Shown: positions 32,862 to 43,201 of the stretch, piece after piece
How positions within the stretch are numbered: position 1 is the stretch's first letter
How the letters are laid out: every line of letters starts with the position of its first letter
NCBI GenBank assembly: GCA_015065645.1
Contig: SVPW01000016.1
Span: 1 to 46,527 of the forward strand
DNA: 46,527 nucleotides
From: Oscillospiraceae bacterium
GTDB lineage: Bacteria; Bacillota; Clostridia; Oscillospirales; Acutalibacteraceae
Reading direction: 5' to 3'
Made by a program: the position numbers and the translations under genes
The notes under the pieces: model-generated
What the model saw: only the letters and a program-made list of their open reading frames with translations
The model's database searches: none
What the model was told of the DNA's origin: nothing

Positions 32862-32975
32862 TACCGCAAGAGGGCAGCCAAATGCAAACGGTGCATAATA
32901 AGGTTGAAATATAAAATAAGAATCCCAGCCTGCCGTAACGCATTTAAGATAACCTGCTGTTTTTGCAGGTGGGTG
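32862..32975 (+). repeat. 113-bp direct repeat R1, right copy
   Basis: Near-identical to 32653-32765. Its first bases (ACCGCAAGAGG) are also the tail of the R2 core, found once at the tRNA-Trp locus. Confidence 0.9.
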
Positions 32976-33119
32976 TCCGCCGGGCGGCTTCGCGCTCCCT
33001 TCTTCCGAACTCGGCACAGCCGCGGGAGGTCTGCAAGCCCACCGCCCGAGATAGGACCCCGTTTAATATTGTTGTAGGGTTATAAAAATACGATTCGCGA
33101 ACAGGCCAGGATAAAAAAG
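32976..33119. other. GC-rich hairpin and remainder of the repeat-rich gap
   Basis: CCGCC-G-GGCGG starts this stretch. A larger fold can be drawn from CGGGCGG (32990-32996) to CCGCCCG (33042-33048), enclosing CTCCC/GGGAG and the small hairpin CCGA-AC-TCGG. From about 33060 the DNA is AT-rich with a TTCGCGAA palindrome, and nothing further is recognised. The open frames across 32610-33077 on both strands are read-through of the repeats, not genes. Confidence 0.55.
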
Positions 33120-37702: not shown

Positions 37703-39085
37703 TTAAGCAATAAAATAGTTTTTATAAGAATATTTTGTTGCGGTGCATTCGGGTACAGGCCAACGGCTATCAGACCAATCGTGATTAAAATTTTTCATTT
37801 GCTCACTTGTTAAATTGAAAAAGGTGTGGTATGCTTCACCCTCACCGCCACCTATTGGGTCATCAAAGGTGATATCGCACATATACCATTCATTATCAAG
37901 CATTACACAGTTCCATTTGTGTCCGCCTCCTGCAGTTCCAACAACGCCTGTGCAGTTAATGCCGACATAAAGGCAAAGTGTCTGAAATGCTTCGGAATAA
38001 GATTCACAAACTCCCATTTTATTAACTATAATACCGTATGCTGTCCAGTTATCTTCGGCAATGCCGTCCCACTTGGCAGAGAGATTATAGTGGCTGTCTA
38101 TAAGTATGCGGTCATATATCAGCTTTTCTTTTACAACATCGGGAGTGTTGGCAGGAATGGTGCTTATTATTCTTTCAACCTCTTTATCAAATACCGCCTT
38201 TTTGGCTCTTATTCTTGTTCTGAGCTCATCATTTATCTCTTTTAATTCTCCACCAAAACGGCAGGTCATTTCACCATCGGAATAACAGAACACAAGCGCA
38301 TCCTTATCACCGCCATAGTTGTAAATTGTTACCTGATTTCCAAGGTAAAAATGCTCGGGATTATCAAACATATAAAGATAATAGATATAGTAGTTATAGT
38401 TTACCGCAAGATCTACATTGATCTCTGCTCTTGCCTCAAGATTTGTAACGGCTTTATCTATAGCTTCATACCAGCCCTTTTTCTCATCATCCAGAACAGA
38501 ATAAAGATATCTTTCGCAATAAGGAACTTTTGTATGCTTTTGATTTGTTGTATAGGTGTACTTTGGCTTTTCTTCTTCTTTAGGCACTGTCGGCTTTACT
38601 TCGGGCTTTACTTCAGGCTCAGGCTGTATTTCGGGTTCGGGCTGTGTTTCGTCCTCAATGTTAACATCAGGATTTGTAATTTCCTCTTTGATTTCTTCCT
38701 TAATCTCTTCCTTTTCAGGTTCAACCTTAGGTGTAGGTGTAGGCTCCGGAATTTTATCAATGGTAGGTATTACCGGTTTTACCTCATCGTTATCAATAGT
38801 AGGAGTATTAAGCTCTATCAAAACAGAGCCGTCTTCACTTTCGGTAAGAGTGGTGGTGTAACCCCAATCATCCATTTTATTAACAAAATCATCAAAGCTT
38901 GAAATATCATCTAATGGTGCATCAGGTATGATATTTTCATCTTTTTCTTCCTCATCAGAAACCACGATGTTTTCTTTAATCGCAGTTGATGGCTTGTTCT
39001 TTTTGTCGGCGGTATTATTTTTTCCGCAGGCGGTGAGTGATAAAATAAAGATAAGTGCTAAAATGAGTGCTAAAAGTTTTTTCAT
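37703..39085 (-). CDS. Lipoprotein with transglutaminase-like (cysteine protease-fold) domain
   Basis: A 460-residue surface lipoprotein. The signal peptide ends in lipobox LTAC with Cys20 as lipidation site. A long low-complexity spacer (~105-190) is rich in Pro, Glu and Lys (repeats such as KEEIKEEI and PEPEVKPEVKP), typical of wall-spanning linkers. The C-terminal domain has a full catalytic triad: Cys in GVCESYSEAF, His in GGGHKWNCV and Asp in WYMCDITFDDP. Such domains act as proteases, peptidases or crosslinking enzymes; substrate unknown. Its leader carries a hairpin covering the ribosome-binding site, shared with the lipoprotein at 41953-42627. The sigma-LRR gene lies upstream on the same strand. 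Confidence 0.92.
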   Translation of the reverse strand: MKKLLALILALIFILSLTACGKNNTADKKNKPSTAIKENIVVSDEEEKDENIIPDAPLDDISSFDDFVNKMDDWGYTTTLTESEDGSVLIELNTPTIDNDEVKPVIPTIDKIPEPTPTPKVEPEKEEIKEEIKEEITNPDVNIEDETQPEPEIQPEPEVKPEVKPTVPKEEEKPKYTYTTNQKHTKVPYCERYLYSVLDDEKKGWYEAIDKAVTNLEARAEINVDLAVNYNYYIYYLYMFDNPEHFYLGNQVTIYNYGGDKDALVFCYSDGEMTCRFGGELKEINDELRTRIRAKKAVFDKEVERIISTIPANTPDVVKEKLIYDRILIDSHYNLSAKWDGIAEDNWTAYGIIVNKMGVCESYSEAFQTLCLYVGINCTGVVGTAGGGHKWNCVMLDNEWYMCDITFDDPIGGGEGEAYHTFFNLTSEQMKNFNHDWSDSRWPVPECTATKYSYKNYFIA

Positions 39086-39092
39086 GATTAAA

Positions 39093-39196
39093 AATCCCCT
39101 TTAATAATGTTTTTGGACTCTTTTTTTCGTCCTTACATTAATAAAGGGGATTTAAGATTTAATTTGGTTTTATATTTTTTTAAAAAATTTTAAAAA
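39093..39196 (-). promoter_or_regulatory. Shared leader block A with Shine-Dalgarno-masking hairpin
   Basis: On the minus strand an A/T-phased tract and TATAAAACCAAA are followed by an imperfect hairpin spanning 39152 to 39093. It has an outer 11-bp stem AATCCCCTTTA/TAAAGGGGATT, one mismatch, TAATGT/ACATTA, and inner GGAC/GTCC. The 3' strand of the outer stem is the AAAGGGG ribosome-binding site of the transglutaminase-like lipoprotein gene. The block matches the leader at 42634-42740 almost base for base in its 5' half. Confidence 0.7.
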
Positions 39197-39208: not shown

Positions 39209-41794
39209 TTATCCCAATGTAATATTACCGTTATTTGCCGAAGCGGCAAGTTCGGATAAAATCGGGCAAGTACCCTTAAGCGTTATAGGTAATACGGTAC
39301 CGGTAAAACACTCTGTATTATATTCCATATCGGTAATATTGGCATTGATTTCGATATTTCCCGTAAGAGAAGTACAGTCTCTGAACATTCCTCCAATATA
39401 TTTAGCCTTTTTTGGTATCGCAGGAATGGTTTTAAGGGATGTGCATCCGTCAAACATATAGTTCATAAATTCAGCATTTGCAGGAATATTCGGTATAGAT
39501 TCAAGAGCAGTACAATCCGAAAAAGCATTATGCATAACATTAATACTATCGGGCAATACAGGAACCTCAACCAATGATTTGCAACTTAAGAATGCTAATT
39601 GCATATCGTATACCGAATCAGGAATTTTGGGTGCCACCCTTAGTGCTTTACAGTAAGAAAACGTGTAAACAAGCTCATGTATTTCAGGGGGCAACTCAGG
39701 AGCTTCCTCCAGAGAATGACAATGTAAAAATGCAGCGATAACCGAAATTACGCTTTCTGGAATTTTCGGCGCCACTTTCATACTGGTACAGTTTGCAAAA
39801 GCGGCTGTCATAATCCTTAACGGATAACCGCCTATATCAGCTAAAAGCGCACTGTAACTCGTTTTTGTTTTATCGTTGACTCTTACGGCCCAACCACTGA
39901 TCCAACCATCGGCCTTGCTCAATTCAATACTTCCGTCACTGCTTACAGCACCCACACTGAGTATTTCACCGAAAGTATAGGTGTAGTCATCGGTTATAAA
40001 TTTATCACCATTTTCAGGGTGAGCTTCTATAACCGCACCGGCATTATATACCTTTCCGTCAACCGTTAAATATTGGCAACCTATCGGCACGGTATAATTC
40101 CAGAGCTGCATAACCTCTTCATCATTGCCGGTACCACGGTCTATCGCTTTGCCGTTTACGGTGATTTTTTCATTATCAGAAAGCCTTGCAATAAGTATCA
40201 GATTCTCTTCCGGTGTTTCACCCGTTAGATTGATAGGCTCTGCCGTACCGCTAAAGGTATCGCTGTAAAACCATTCAATGCTTTTATCCAATTCCGCATT
40301 GATCACAACATCCCCCGTAAGGCTTGTACAATCCTTGAAAGACATCATAATTCTTTGAACATTTTTCGGTATAATCGGTGCTTTTTTGAGCGCCGAGCAA
40401 CCCAAATATGCCGCAGGCATTGCTGTTATTGTGGATGGAATTTCAGGTGCTTCTGTCATATTGGTACAACCGAAAAATGTGCCGTATAATGTTTTTATCG
40501 GCTTGCCGTTAATTTTAGAAACGATTACACTGTAAGATTTTTTGGTTTGGTCTGCTACCATAACAGACCAACTCCCAAACACATCACTTTCTATAACACC
40601 GCTGTCACCGCTATCAAAGCCATCTTTCCACATATGCCAAGTGTCTGTGCCTTCAATATTTTTTGTATATACACATTCATAACCGTAAAGGTAATCGGCG
40701 TATGCAACCTTATCGCCTGCGGTGCAGTTTTCGGGAAATTTCTCTCCTGCATTCAATACAGTGCCGTTAAAAAGTGTGTAGGTGCACCCATCGGGGATGA
40801 TACCTTCTAAAATCAACTCATCATTATCATTATTATCAGATTCCGATGAAGCGTCATTTTTATTATCTTCTGATGATGTAATATTCTGATTATTTGCCGG
40901 AATTTCATTATCGTTGTTTTGCGATATAATAACCGCAGCAGTACCACCGCCTACTGCTATTGTAACCGCAACAATACCCGCAACAACCTTAGTAACTAAA
41001 GGCAGTGCGGCAATTTTTGCACCTATTCCAACTGCAGTAGCCGTTGTGGCAGTTGTTGCCACAGCTGCTGTGGTAGCGGTTGCAACACTGATTGAGCTGC
41101 CTGTTGCCGTACCAATACCCTCAGCCAAAACCTTTGCAGCAGATAATGGCATACCGCCCTCGTAAGAGCTTTTGAATAACCAGCCAAATAAAGGGAAAAG
41201 AGGAATAGCATGCAATTTGATACCGTTTTTCTTTTCGTATTCTTCCACCGATTCCTTAATTGATTTTCTTGCATAGTTAAGTCGGCTCTTAACCGTACCT
41301 TCTGAAACACCTTGAATTTCTGCAATCTGTCGTACTGACATTTCATCAAAGTAATACATCATAGCAGCAGAGCGTTGCTCTTCGGATAGCTTGTCCAAAA
41401 TTGCTATTACGGTTTTTTTGAAATCCGCCTTATCAAGTGCTTCATCGGGAATAAATTCGGTATTTTCCTCTTGCAAAGCATCGAAAACGGTATTACCTTC
41501 TTCATCTTCATCAACAAGCACATCTTTTTTCTTTTTAAAATAACGGGTGCATTGATGATATGTAATCTGCTTTGCCCAGGTAACAAATGCGGCAGGCTCT
41601 TTTAAATTACCGAGTGTATTAATTATCTCTACAAACGCTTCCTGCGTTACATCAAGTGCGGTTTCTTCATCCTTAATCGTCTTTAATGCAAAATAATATA
41701 AATCATTGTAATACTCATTAAAAAGAGTATTTAAAGCATCATTATCTCCGTTTTGTGCTGCCGTAACGGTAGATACAAGTTGTTCTTTCTCCAA
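39209..41794 (-). CDS. ECF-type sigma factor fused to a transmembrane segment and extracellular BspA-like leucine-rich repeats
   Basis: About 861 residues. Sigma region 2 spans ~20-92 (LFNEYYNDLYYFALKTI...DVTQEAFVEI) and region 4 ~130-185 (LSEEQRSAAMMYYFDEMS...EGTVKSRLNYAR). An Ala/Thr-rich stretch leads to one transmembrane helix (~263-291). A Ser/Asn/Asp-rich linker is followed by outer repeats of about 23 residues, pattern FxxCxxLxxaPxiPxxvxxmxxxF, in two blocks (~445-505 and ~685-850). So the DNA-binding half is inside and the repeats outside. No anti-sigma gene adjoins. The start is set at TTG 41794, 4 bases after GGGGTGAT; a GTG 9 bases earlier lacks a ribosome-binding site. Function as a membrane-held sensor-regulator is inference. 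Confidence 0.9.
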   Translation of the reverse strand: MEKEQLVSTVTAAQNGDNDALNTLFNEYYNDLYYFALKTIKDEETALDVTQEAFVEIINTLGNLKEPAAFVTWAKQITYHQCTRYFKKKKDVLVDEDEEGNTVFDALQEENTEFIPDEALDKADFKKTVIAILDKLSEEQRSAAMMYYFDEMSVRQIAEIQGVSEGTVKSRLNYARKSIKESVEEYEKKNGIKLHAIPLFPLFGWLFKSSYEGGMPLSAAKVLAEGIGTATGSSISVATATTAAVATTATTATAVGIGAKIAALPLVTKVVAGIVAVTIAVGGGTAAVIISQNNDNEIPANNQNITSSEDNKNDASSESDNNDNDELILEGIIPDGCTYTLFNGTVLNAGEKFPENCTAGDKVAYADYLYGYECVYTKNIEGTDTWHMWKDGFDSGDSGVIESDVFGSWSVMVADQTKKSYSVIVSKINGKPIKTLYGTFFGCTNMTEAPEIPSTITAMPAAYLGCSALKKAPIIPKNVQRIMMSFKDCTSLTGDVVINAELDKSIEWFYSDTFSGTAEPINLTGETPEENLILIARLSDNEKITVNGKAIDRGTGNDEEVMQLWNYTVPIGCQYLTVDGKVYNAGAVIEAHPENGDKFITDDYTYTFGEILSVGAVSSDGSIELSKADGWISGWAVRVNDKTKTSYSALLADIGGYPLRIMTAAFANCTSMKVAPKIPESVISVIAAFLHCHSLEEAPELPPEIHELVYTFSYCKALRVAPKIPDSVYDMQLAFLSCKSLVEVPVLPDSINVMHNAFSDCTALESIPNIPANAEFMNYMFDGCTSLKTIPAIPKKAKYIGGMFRDCTSLTGNIEINANITDMEYNTECFTGTVLPITLKGTCPILSELAASANNGNITLG

Positions 41795-41823
41795 GTTTAT
41801 CACCCCAAAAATACTATAAAAGT

Positions 41824-41852
41824 ATTATATCTTATTTCATTATCTATTACAA
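41824..41852 (-). promoter_or_regulatory. Sigma-A promoter for the sigma-LRR fusion gene
   Basis: Minus strand: TTGTAA (41847-41852), 17 bases, TATAAT (41824-41829). The gene can therefore be expressed by housekeeping sigma. Confidence 0.75.
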
Positions 41853-41952: not shown

Positions 41953-42627
41953 TTAATATGAATTTGAAACGCTTGCATTACAGATCAAAGATGAAAGGTT
42001 TGCGCCATAATTTGCCACGGTATCAGGTGCAAATCTGAATGTCCAAACGATATTTGTGTATGGTGCTAAGGTAACATTATTTAAAACACCAAATCCGCTT
42101 CCGGAAGCAATTACTCCTGAGGAATTGCTGAATGTTATGGATTTAACATTGATGTTGAAAACATTATGCGAGAAGCCGTTGATAACAAAGCATTCTGCAA
42201 CAAGTTCGCCGTTTTCCCAATAAACATATCGTGGTTTAATTGAAACTGCATTTGCATCATAGTTGCTGTTATTTGGATTGAAGAATTTGTTATTAGTATC
42301 AATCTCTTGGCTTCCTTGTGGATTCTGAGGTTCTGTTTCAACCGGGGTTGTTTGGGGGATGGAAGGTTCAGGATTGTTTACGGGTGTATCATTTTGACCG
42401 TTATTGGTTTGAGGGGTGTTTTCTCCCTCATTTTTTTCTTCATTTTCGGAAACTTCTTCTTCGATTTCGTTTGATGAATTTAACTCTTGCTTTGGATCCT
42501 CTGTATTTTGGGAAATTTCGGTTTTAGGCGGGTTTACATCACTTGATGTTTCAACCACCCTGTTACCGCAGGCGGTAAGGCTAAAGGTTAATGCGAGTAC
42601 GGTTAAGATTGCAAAGATTTTTTTCAT
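41953..42627 (-). CDS. Lipoprotein with a C-terminal SLAP-like domain
   Basis: A 224-residue surface lipoprotein with signal peptide and lipobox LTAC (Cys20). A Glu/Asn/Pro-rich spacer (~25-115) is followed by a ~95-residue beta-rich domain. The pattern YWENGELVAECFVINGF..VFNINVKSITF...GVIASGSGFGVLNNVTLAPYTNIVWTFRF resembles SLAP domains of Firmicutes surface proteins; this is by eye only. The ATG has AAAGGAG upstream, buried in a leader hairpin like that of the transglutaminase-like gene. A terminator separates it from the sigma-LRR gene downstream. Confidence 0.85.
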   Translation of the reverse strand: MKKIFAILTVLALTFSLTACGNRVVETSSDVNPPKTEISQNTEDPKQELNSSNEIEEEVSENEEKNEGENTPQTNNGQNDTPVNNPEPSIPQTTPVETEPQNPQGSQEIDTNNKFFNPNNSNYDANAVSIKPRYVYWENGELVAECFVINGFSHNVFNINVKSITFSNSSGVIASGSGFGVLNNVTLAPYTNIVWTFRFAPDTVANYGANLSSLICNASVSNSY

Positions 42628-42633
42628 TTTAGA

Positions 42634-42740
42634 TTTCTCCTTTAAAATGTGTTTTTTATTTCGGGTTTTTCCCTTTACACTAATTAAGGGGAATGAGATT
42701 TGCTTTTGGTTTTATATTTTTAAAAAATTTTTTAAACCTT
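42634..42740 (-). promoter_or_regulatory. Shared leader block B with Shine-Dalgarno-masking hairpin
   Basis: The counterpart of the block at 39093-39196. On the minus strand TTTTTTAAAAATATAAAACCAAA is followed by CCCCTTAATTAGTGTAA. TTCCCCTT/AAAGGAGAA and GTGT/ACAC form an imperfect stem, and the tip helix is GGG/CCC instead of GGAC/GTCC. The ribosome-binding site AAAGGAG is in the 3' strand. A further TATAAT lies upstream at about 42758-42763 without a good -35. Confidence 0.65.
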
Positions 42741-43013: not shown

Positions 43014-43090
43014 GGACCAGTAGCTCAGTTGGTTAGAGCAACCGGCTCATAACCGGTTGGTCCGGGGTTCGAGTCCCTGCTGGTCCACCA
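43014..43090 (+). tRNA. tRNA-Met (CAT anticodon)
   Basis: 77 nt with encoded CCA. Acceptor GGACCAG pairs with CTGGTCC; the anticodon arm CCGGCTCATAACCGG gives CAT; the T-arm is GGGGTTCGAGTCCC. The first base pair is G-C, so it is not the initiator tRNA. It reads as elongator Met, but a lysidine-modified Ile2 tRNA shares this anticodon and cannot be excluded by eye. Confidence 0.95.
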
Positions 43091-43125: not shown

Positions 43126-43201
43126 AGGGGTATAGCTCAGCTGGTAGAGCATCGGTCTCCAAAACCGAGTGCCGAGGGTTCGATCCCTTCTGCCCCTGCC
43201 A
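43126..43201 (+). tRNA. tRNA-Trp (CCA anticodon)
   Basis: 76 nt with encoded CCA end. Acceptor AGGGGTA pairs with TGCCCCT (one G-U); the anticodon loop CTCCAAA gives CCA (Trp); the T-arm is GAGGGTTCGATCCCTTC. It lies 35 bases after tRNA-Met in the same transcript. Its 3' half is duplicated downstream. Confidence 0.96.

Follow-up and report, generated by a model that had tools for sequence, protein, structure and literature searches.

Can a sigma factor of the extracytoplasmic function (ECF) type be controlled without any anti-sigma factor? The question is raised by a gene on contig SVPW01000016.1 of an Oscillospiraceae bacterium (GenBank assembly GCA_015065645.1), of which positions 1 to 46,527 were analysed and are hereafter called the window. 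A sequence-only reading, made without database searches, had described the product as a sigma factor fused to a membrane anchor and to extracellular repeats, and had proposed a one-protein signalling device with a possible cleavage zone in an Ala/Thr-rich stretch beside the membrane. In the analysis described here the sigma, anchor and sensor architecture was upheld, being present in all 60 members of the family that were scanned, and the cleavage zone was not. The protein is probably a single-protein transmembrane device, in which a tethered ECF sigma factor carrying an exchangeable outer sensor would be released by cleavage and would activate the flanking lipoprotein genes. This reading is supported by the constant architecture, by purifying selection on the sigma part, by the finding of no anti-sigma family in the adjacent genes scanned and by a putative ECF-type promoter linked to the fusion gene.

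Identification and architecture of the fused sigma factor

The open reading frame (ORF) beginning with a GTG at 41803 runs from 41803 to 39209 on the minus strand and comprises 864 codons; a TTG at 41794, directly following the sequence GGGGTGA, gives a polypeptide of 861 residues. The TTG is the likelier start because it is aligned with the starting methionine of relatives and is preceded by GGGGTGA, and residue numbers are counted from it. From its N-terminus, the polypeptide has regions 2 and 4 of an ECF sigma factor, then a short hydrophobic segment, a tether rich in Ala and Thr, one transmembrane helix and an acidic linker, followed by two units that each contain a beta-domain and 23-residue BspA-type leucine-rich repeats (LRR) (Table 1). 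The ORF, the Pfam matches and the homologues confirmed that these parts belong to one protein, as first read. A weak sigma-A-like promoter match precedes the gene (Table 1), such matches being in general only somewhat more frequent than in shuffled sequences.

Both sigma regions were found intact at the N-terminus, in agreement with the earlier description, with Pfam matches beyond the curated cut-offs (Sigma70_r2, E = 1.9e-10; Sigma70_r4_2, E = 8.6e-13) and a match of the window protein to the NCBIfam sigma70-ECF model (3.2e-31). A 13-member profile compared with solved ECF sigma factors matched SigW (6.9e-21), SigH (2.7e-20), sigma-E (2e-16) and SigL (1.6e-10) over the sigma part. For statements on the family, 60 members were scanned, namely the window protein, L011–L022 and 47 from searches, five of the proteins being cut by the end of a locus or contig; L023 (the window itself), L024 and L039 (contigs of L014 and L018), the unfused L026 and matches without a fetched locus were left out. 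Sigma70_r2 and Sigma70_r4_2 were detected in 60 of 60, and the contact residues, whose loss would have spoken against a functional sigma factor, were retained (D48 in 59, Q51 in 59 and W73 in 56 members). Like ECF sigma factors (group 4), the protein has no sigma regions other than 2 and 4 and conserves the residues that contact core and promoter.

The ratio of non-synonymous to synonymous substitution (dN/dS) was 0.031 for the sigma part, 0.27 for the tether and helix and 0.13 for the outer part in L012/L013, the sole unsaturated pair. Silent sites were near or past saturation in the other four pairs, in which the sigma part had the lowest dN/dS wherever it was computable. Judged by these ratios, the sigma part is under strong purifying selection and is the most constrained part of the protein.

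The single transmembrane helix that had been placed near residue 275 was identified as a hydrophobic helix at about residues 270–291, with a counterpart in every one of the 60 members: the highest-scoring window of 19 residues where the helix was expected had a Kyte-Doolittle mean of at least 1.55 in 60 and at least 1.6 in 58, and a second hydrophobic segment beyond the helix was seen in two. The 25 residues next to the helix carried a more positive net charge on the side of the sigma part than on the other in 57 of the 60 members, and a less positive one in two; with Lys and Arg alone, the sigma side was richer in 36, equal in 13 and poorer in 11. The presence of the helix throughout, together with the net charge bias toward the sigma side, favours an orientation with the sigma part inside and the repeats outside. 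Two other stretches were rejected by eye as a second membrane helix, the segment following sigma region 4, which has only about 14 hydrophobic residues before charge, and the Ala/Thr-rich stretch. Charged sequence takes the place of the latter in some homologues (for example L053, L064 and L078, by eye), for which reason it is taken as a cytoplasmic tether; it is flexible-looking and has a median length of 61 residues across the members. Since it lies N-terminal to the helix and is therefore cytoplasmic, it cannot be an outer site-1 cleavage zone as had been suggested. The acidic Ser/Asn-rich linker at residues 292–326 is a candidate for such a zone.

The two blocks of BspA-like repeats reported for the outer part were recovered by different means. 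The second was matched by Pfam LRR_5 at residues 710–826 (6.8e-15, beyond the curated cut-off); the first was seen by eye and in a structure model, Pfam having flagged no repeat there. The model of residues 309–861 (predicted local distance difference test score, pLDDT, 84.6) contained two units, in each of which LRR repeats come after a beta subdomain, and its closest solved structures were the bacterial BspA-type LRR proteins 4fs7 (E = 4.8e-8), 4h09 and 6mlx, with template modelling (TM) scores of 0.69–0.72 by target length. The outer part is thus of the BspA type in both its LRR_5 repeat and its fold. Elsewhere the same genome encodes a BspA-type LRR protein that is secreted and stands alone, with a dockerin-like end (L002, 940–2673).

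Distribution and descent of the family

A contig scan yielded 12 relatives, all from metagenome bins, of which 11 were assigned to Clostridia or Oscillospiraceae and one to 'uncultured bacterium'; a ruminant host is named for seven. Genomes were searched with A1, a 13-row profile of the sigma part, tether and helix. At 1e-30, A1 had matches in four of 20 near relatives including the own genome, one of them (G019) unfused. At 1e-35 it found matches in 29 genomes of the order (394 searched) and in 15 of the class (391 searched), the own genome and G144 being in both sets. All matches listed for order and class sit in open frames of at least 359 residues, and four copies each were found in G226, G403 and G576. 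Genomes with no close fused homologue at these thresholds are counted as non-carriers, including G019 despite its unfused match.

The outer domains of the 60 members, as judged from the first 25 of 34 Pfam families listed, included LRR_5 in eight, Big_2 in three and WG repeats in three, with RCC1-like, lipocalin-like, SH3 and other domains as single cases. An eight-row alignment showed both units in the window protein and L011, unit 1 followed by other sequence in L012–L015, and unit 2 only in L016 and L017. On these comparisons the outer modules are exchanged behind a constant sigma-helix part, and the fusion is not unique but is shared across a clostridial family that includes the window protein.

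The survey of homologues for the same fusion, with sigma region 2, sigma region 4 and helix together in 60 of 60 members, bears on whether the gene could be an artefact of gene fusion or assembly, or a decayed sigma factor carried on a surface protein. The existence of stand-alone secreted BspA-type proteins elsewhere in the genome would fit such an origin, but the same fusion occurs in independent assemblies, the sigma part is the most constrained one, and relatives retain it while varying the outer domain. An artefact is accordingly very improbable, and an assembly join was rejected on the same grounds.

In a tree built from 86 sigma domains, of which 61 were fused and 25 were not, the fused sequences formed one supported group (96/95), with two state changes on the tree. 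Inside this group, on a long branch, falls L166 (G001, contig C5), a sigma factor whose C-terminal extension is soluble and in which inspection by eye showed no membrane helix. One origin of the fusion is compatible with the tree but not demonstrated by it, and the tree is biased because most of the fused rows were chosen by similarity to the query; L165 (G006), which may be chimeric, was excluded from it. A region-4 search in 13 genomes listed 53 matches, seven of them in frames of more than 400 codons. Distant long-frame sigma factors also occur in G001 and G006, which were first counted as being without the family; L175 (G001) is a distant transmembrane-fused sigma factor, and not all of the long-frame proteins are membrane fusions.

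A putative promoter element linked to the fused sigma factor genes

The intergenic stretches beside the fusion genes contain a bipartite element composed of an A-tract, AAAACC, 15 bases and TCCCC (equivalent to AAAACC-N16-CCCC), followed by TTNATTAAYGTAAGG. Exact copies of AAAACY-N15-TCCCC were found at 20 sites in 13 loci (the last 12.5 kb of the window and L011–L022, 112.8 kb), 12 of the 13 loci having one; the sites are not all independent because L012 and L013 are closely related. The same pattern had a mean of 0.1 and a maximum of two in 100 dinucleotide shuffles, and at the 16 other spacers (8–14 and 16–24) AAAACY and TCCCC gave zero sites in these loci. L018, with no exact site, has a match to the promoter model of 28.7 bits. 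The exact AAAACC form occurs three times in the own genome, two of them at the window locus (Table 1). Of 32 sites with a called gene, 17 have AAAACC 80–87 nt ahead of the called start codon and the rest 22–294 nt ahead of it, some of the calls being doubtful. Predicted targets are mostly lipoproteins or exported proteins, and in L011, L018, L021, G392 (C59) and G237 (C84) the first gene called after the element is the fusion gene. Neither promoter nor leader matched an Rfam family.

A model built from the sequence of 18 sites alone was applied to 29 genomes, of which nine carry a fused homologue and 20 lack a close one; up to 150 candidates were scored in each genome, and counts are among the matches listed, the list being shortened at its weak end. 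Twelve matches reached at least 22 bits (five in G004, three in G236, two in G000 and two in G392, that is, in four of the nine carriers), and nine of these adjoin a fused sigma gene. The 20 genomes without a close fused sigma factor had no match of at least 22 bits, the highest being 20.6 bits (G191), and in 16 control loci the sole match was of 8.7 bits (L029). In G403, which has four fused sigma factors, six of the eight weak matches listed (14–20 bits) are no more than about 3 kb away from one of these. Strong sites also occur far from the fusion gene in G004 and G236. Two such sites in G004 (contig C39; L146, 1031–1094 and 1617–1672) each precede one of two consecutive genes, the product of one having a weak DUF4428 match.

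The 46 loci of distant members (182 kb) showed no CCCC peak. There, [AT]AAAC[CT] combined with [CT]GTC gave 16 sites at spacing 16, compared with 0–7 sites at each of the other 16 spacings; the 16 sites are spread over 11 loci and some look like chance. With -10 tetrads assigned by eye, YHQC or YHRC in region 2.4 was accompanied by CCCC in 14 of 14 labelled cases, YSQC by GCTC (two cases, one genus) and FCQC by CCAC (one case), and mostly NxA-type region 2.4 by CGTC or TGTC. The -10 tetrad thus seems to vary with region 2.4 of the sigma factor to which it is linked.

It is very likely, from this linkage, that the fused sigma factor reads the AAAACC-N16-CCCC element. The element might instead be read by another ECF sigma factor, the fused protein being its regulator or decoy, and the own genome does contain eight sigma-70 region 2 matches, including the fusion gene and one of 370 codons. 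This is improbable, as the element adjoins the fused sigma gene in all 13 of the close loci, whose other neighbours differ, no strong element was found in the 20 genomes without a close fused sigma factor, and the -10 varies with region 2.4 of the fused sigma factor itself.

Search for an anti-sigma factor

In line with the earlier statement that no separate anti-sigma adjoins the gene, no anti-sigma Pfam family was found in those immediate neighbours that were scanned one by one (in the relatives, ORFs of at least 90 codons). A batch scan of 67 flanking proteins, for which the first 25 of 73 families were listed, is by itself incomplete as evidence of absence.

The sigma factor might still be held by a partner that is soluble or escaped notice, such as a very small protein, with the anchor serving only for localisation. 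The flank scans skipped ORFs of fewer than 90 codons, and small ORFs do lie before the sigma gene in L021, L018 and L019. The one in L021 (1712–1876, 55 codons) is directly upstream of the fused sigma gene, with its stop 4 nt before it; those in L018 and L019 are similar by eye, with about 45–55 codons, and all are possible small partners. Directly before the fusion gene of the window, however, no ORF of at least 25 codons with a ribosome-binding site was found, and we regard control by such a partner as quite improbable.

Proposed mechanism

On the reading preferred here, the tether and helix on its C-terminal side would keep the ECF sigma factor against the inner membrane face, and an exchangeable sensor, made up in the window protein of two beta/BspA-LRR units, would lie outside. 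This outer part would respond to a surface ligand or to a change in the wall and make the sigma factor available, most likely through a cut in the outer linker followed by a cut of the site-2 protease (S2P)/RseP type in the Gly/Ala-rich helix. The freed sigma factor would then direct RNA polymerase to the AAAACC-N16-CCCC promoters of the flanking lipoprotein genes. The Ala-rich helix might leave a ClpXP-recognised tail on the sigma factor, making the signal short-lived.

Alternatively, the sigma factor could act while tethered, binding or clustering of the signal freeing sigma regions 2 and 4 at the membrane face without proteolysis, so that RNA polymerase would be recruited near the export site of the adjacent lipoproteins. 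This mode of action would suit the adjoining targets, most of which are exported proteins, the length and flexible look of the tether, and the result that no anti-sigma-type domain was recognised in the protein. It is nevertheless rather unlikely, given that IutY is activated by proteolysis and SCO4117 is proposed to be (as described in PMC8999054), and that the strong sites distant from the fusion gene in G004 and G236 would be harder to reach.

Several observations weigh against release by cleavage and activation of the linked promoters. An S2P/RseP-type protease is encoded in the own genome, but its presence says little because the family is near universal, occurring in all 14 control genomes. 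The structure model of the sigma-tether part (pLDDT 53.4) is too poor to judge autoinhibition. Training sites make up four of the 12 strong promoter matches (two in G000 and two in G004), and five of the nine carriers (G003, G144, G237, G291 and G403) have no match of at least 22 bits; these five have more distant sigma factors, with weaker matches beside them in G237 and G403. Independent cases of region 2.4 paired with a -10 are few outside the CCCC class. A sigma-A-like match (42786–42758) also lies upstream of the upstream lipoprotein gene, and a different factor might in principle bind to the A-tract palindrome.

Comparison with known systems

Fused sigma factors have been described in other phyla. 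In SCO4117 of Streptomyces coelicolor (ECF52), a sigma factor, zinc finger, helix and carbohydrate-binding domain form one protein (PMC5826349), for which proteolytic release has been proposed (PMC8999054). The ECF52, ECF53 and ECF48 groups likewise unite an ECF sigma factor with an outer domain and with one or two membrane helices in a single polypeptide, and the window protein shares with them the C-terminal membrane helix and outer domain. Those groups differ in being actinobacterial and in having other outer domains, and their zinc-finger anti-sigma domain, located between sigma part and helix, is absent from the Pfam matches of the window protein (for the other members, this was judged from the first 25 of 34 Pfam families listed). 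The binding motif given for ECF52 is CSGYN-17-SRHA (PMC5826349), as opposed to AAAACC-N16-CCCC here.

IutY of Pseudomonas putida (ECF243; PMC5411451), a cis-fused sigma factor activated by regulated intramembrane proteolysis through Prc and RseP (PMC8999054), is likewise joined to a membrane part. Unlike the window protein, IutY is proteobacterial and is fused to an iron-transport anti-sigma with an outer-membrane receptor; the window protein had no Pfam match to an iron-signalling-type C-terminal anti-sigma domain. The SigI/RsgI system of Clostridium thermocellum is clostridial, as is the present family, and comprises many paralogues that sense different outside substrates, with RseP cutting in the helix and ClpXP degrading an RsgI fragment via XAA sites of the helix region (PMC12203970). 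RsgI, however, is a separate anti-sigma protein, whereas the fragment released here would be the sigma factor itself. The outer part shares repeat family and fold with BspA-type LRR surface proteins (LRR_5), but the solved matches listed are stand-alone proteins and the example in the own genome is secreted and without a sigma factor.

Set against published fused sigma factors, which in the cases considered, as far as these sources describe them, are actinobacterial or proteobacterial, the distinguishing features are the clostridial origin, an architecture in which no anti-sigma domain was recognised, swapped sensors and a linked promoter. Among the listed titles and opening lines of abstracts from open-licence literature, the 2021 ECF re-classification excepted, no such clostridial fused-sigma family was seen; in that re-classification the family may already carry an ECF group number, and absence from print is not claimed. 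If the preferred reading is correct, one gene and a 26-base promoter would form a complete outside-to-transcription switch in Gram-positive gut bacteria, the family would offer a direct way to learn which signals are sensed by the LRR, WG and Ig-like surface domains of uncultured Clostridia, and promoter specificity could be read over dozens of natural sigma variants. A wider and unlikely view is of an old clostridial ECF lineage that is a receptor by descent, with no anti-sigma, with swapped sensors and a private promoter for each sub-lineage set through region 2.4, its tethered sigma factor drawing RNA polymerase and adjoining surface-protein genes to the membrane.

Neighbouring genes and other features

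The fusion gene lies between two lipoprotein genes predicted as targets (Table 1). A homologue of the transglutaminase-like lipoprotein is encoded directly downstream in seven of the 13 loci (the window, L011, L012, L013, L014, L017 and L020) and is lacking at that position in L015, L016, L018, L019 and L022; in L021 the contig ends. The leader of this lipoprotein gene could fold into a strong hairpin (window 39086–39150, minus strand; -19 to -29 kcal/mol), as it could in the same place in L011–L014, with the ribosome-binding site in its 3' arm and compensatory changes by eye; it may instead be a DNA palindrome, because its 5' arm overlaps the proposed -10 CCCC.

Table 1. Features of the fusion gene and its surroundings in the window
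Feature	Position	Strand	Basis or remark
Fused sigma factor gene	39209..41794	minus	861 codons + stop, TTG start; GTG at 41803 possible
Sigma region 2, residues 24–90	41525..41725	minus	Pfam Sigma70_r2
Sigma region 4, residues 129–178	41261..41410	minus	Pfam Sigma70_r4_2
Short conserved hydrophobic segment after sigma region 4, residues 194–207	41174..41215	minus	By eye
Ala/Thr-rich cytoplasmic tether, residues 208–260	41015..41173	minus	Homologue comparison by eye
Transmembrane helix, about residues 270–291	40922..40987	minus	Kyte-Doolittle, charge bias
Acidic Ser/Asn-rich outer linker, residues 292–326	40817..40921	minus	Sequence; low pLDDT at modelled end
Outer unit 1, beta subdomain + BspA-type LRR, residues 327–553	40136..40816	minus	Model; repeats by eye
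Outer unit 2, beta subdomain + BspA-type LRR, residues 565–861	39212..40102	minus	LRR_5; model
Putative sigma-A-like promoter of fusion gene, TTGTAA-17-TATAAT	41824..41852	minus	Weak sequence match
Putative ECF-type promoter AAAACC-N15-TCCCC	39146..39171	minus	48.3 bits; 86 nt before downstream lipoprotein start
Putative ECF-type promoter AAAACC-N15-TCCCC	42688..42713	minus	56.2 bits; 86 nt before upstream lipoprotein start
Transglutaminase-like lipoprotein, 460 aa, predicted target	37703..39085	minus	Directly downstream of fusion gene
Lipoprotein with SLAP-like domain, 224 aa, predicted target	41953..42627	minus	Upstream of fusion gene

In the distant members L058, L060, L065 and L074, a Trp/Phe/Lys-rich frame ahead of the sigma domain begins within about 40 nt after the linked promoter and may represent an N-terminal extension of the sigma factor or a small ORF. 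Elsewhere in the window, a 6S RNA was identified at 32918–33115 on the minus strand (Rfam RF00013, 69.9 bits), and tRNA genes lie at 43014–43087 and 43126–43198 on the plus strand, the minus-strand ORFs across them probably not being genes.

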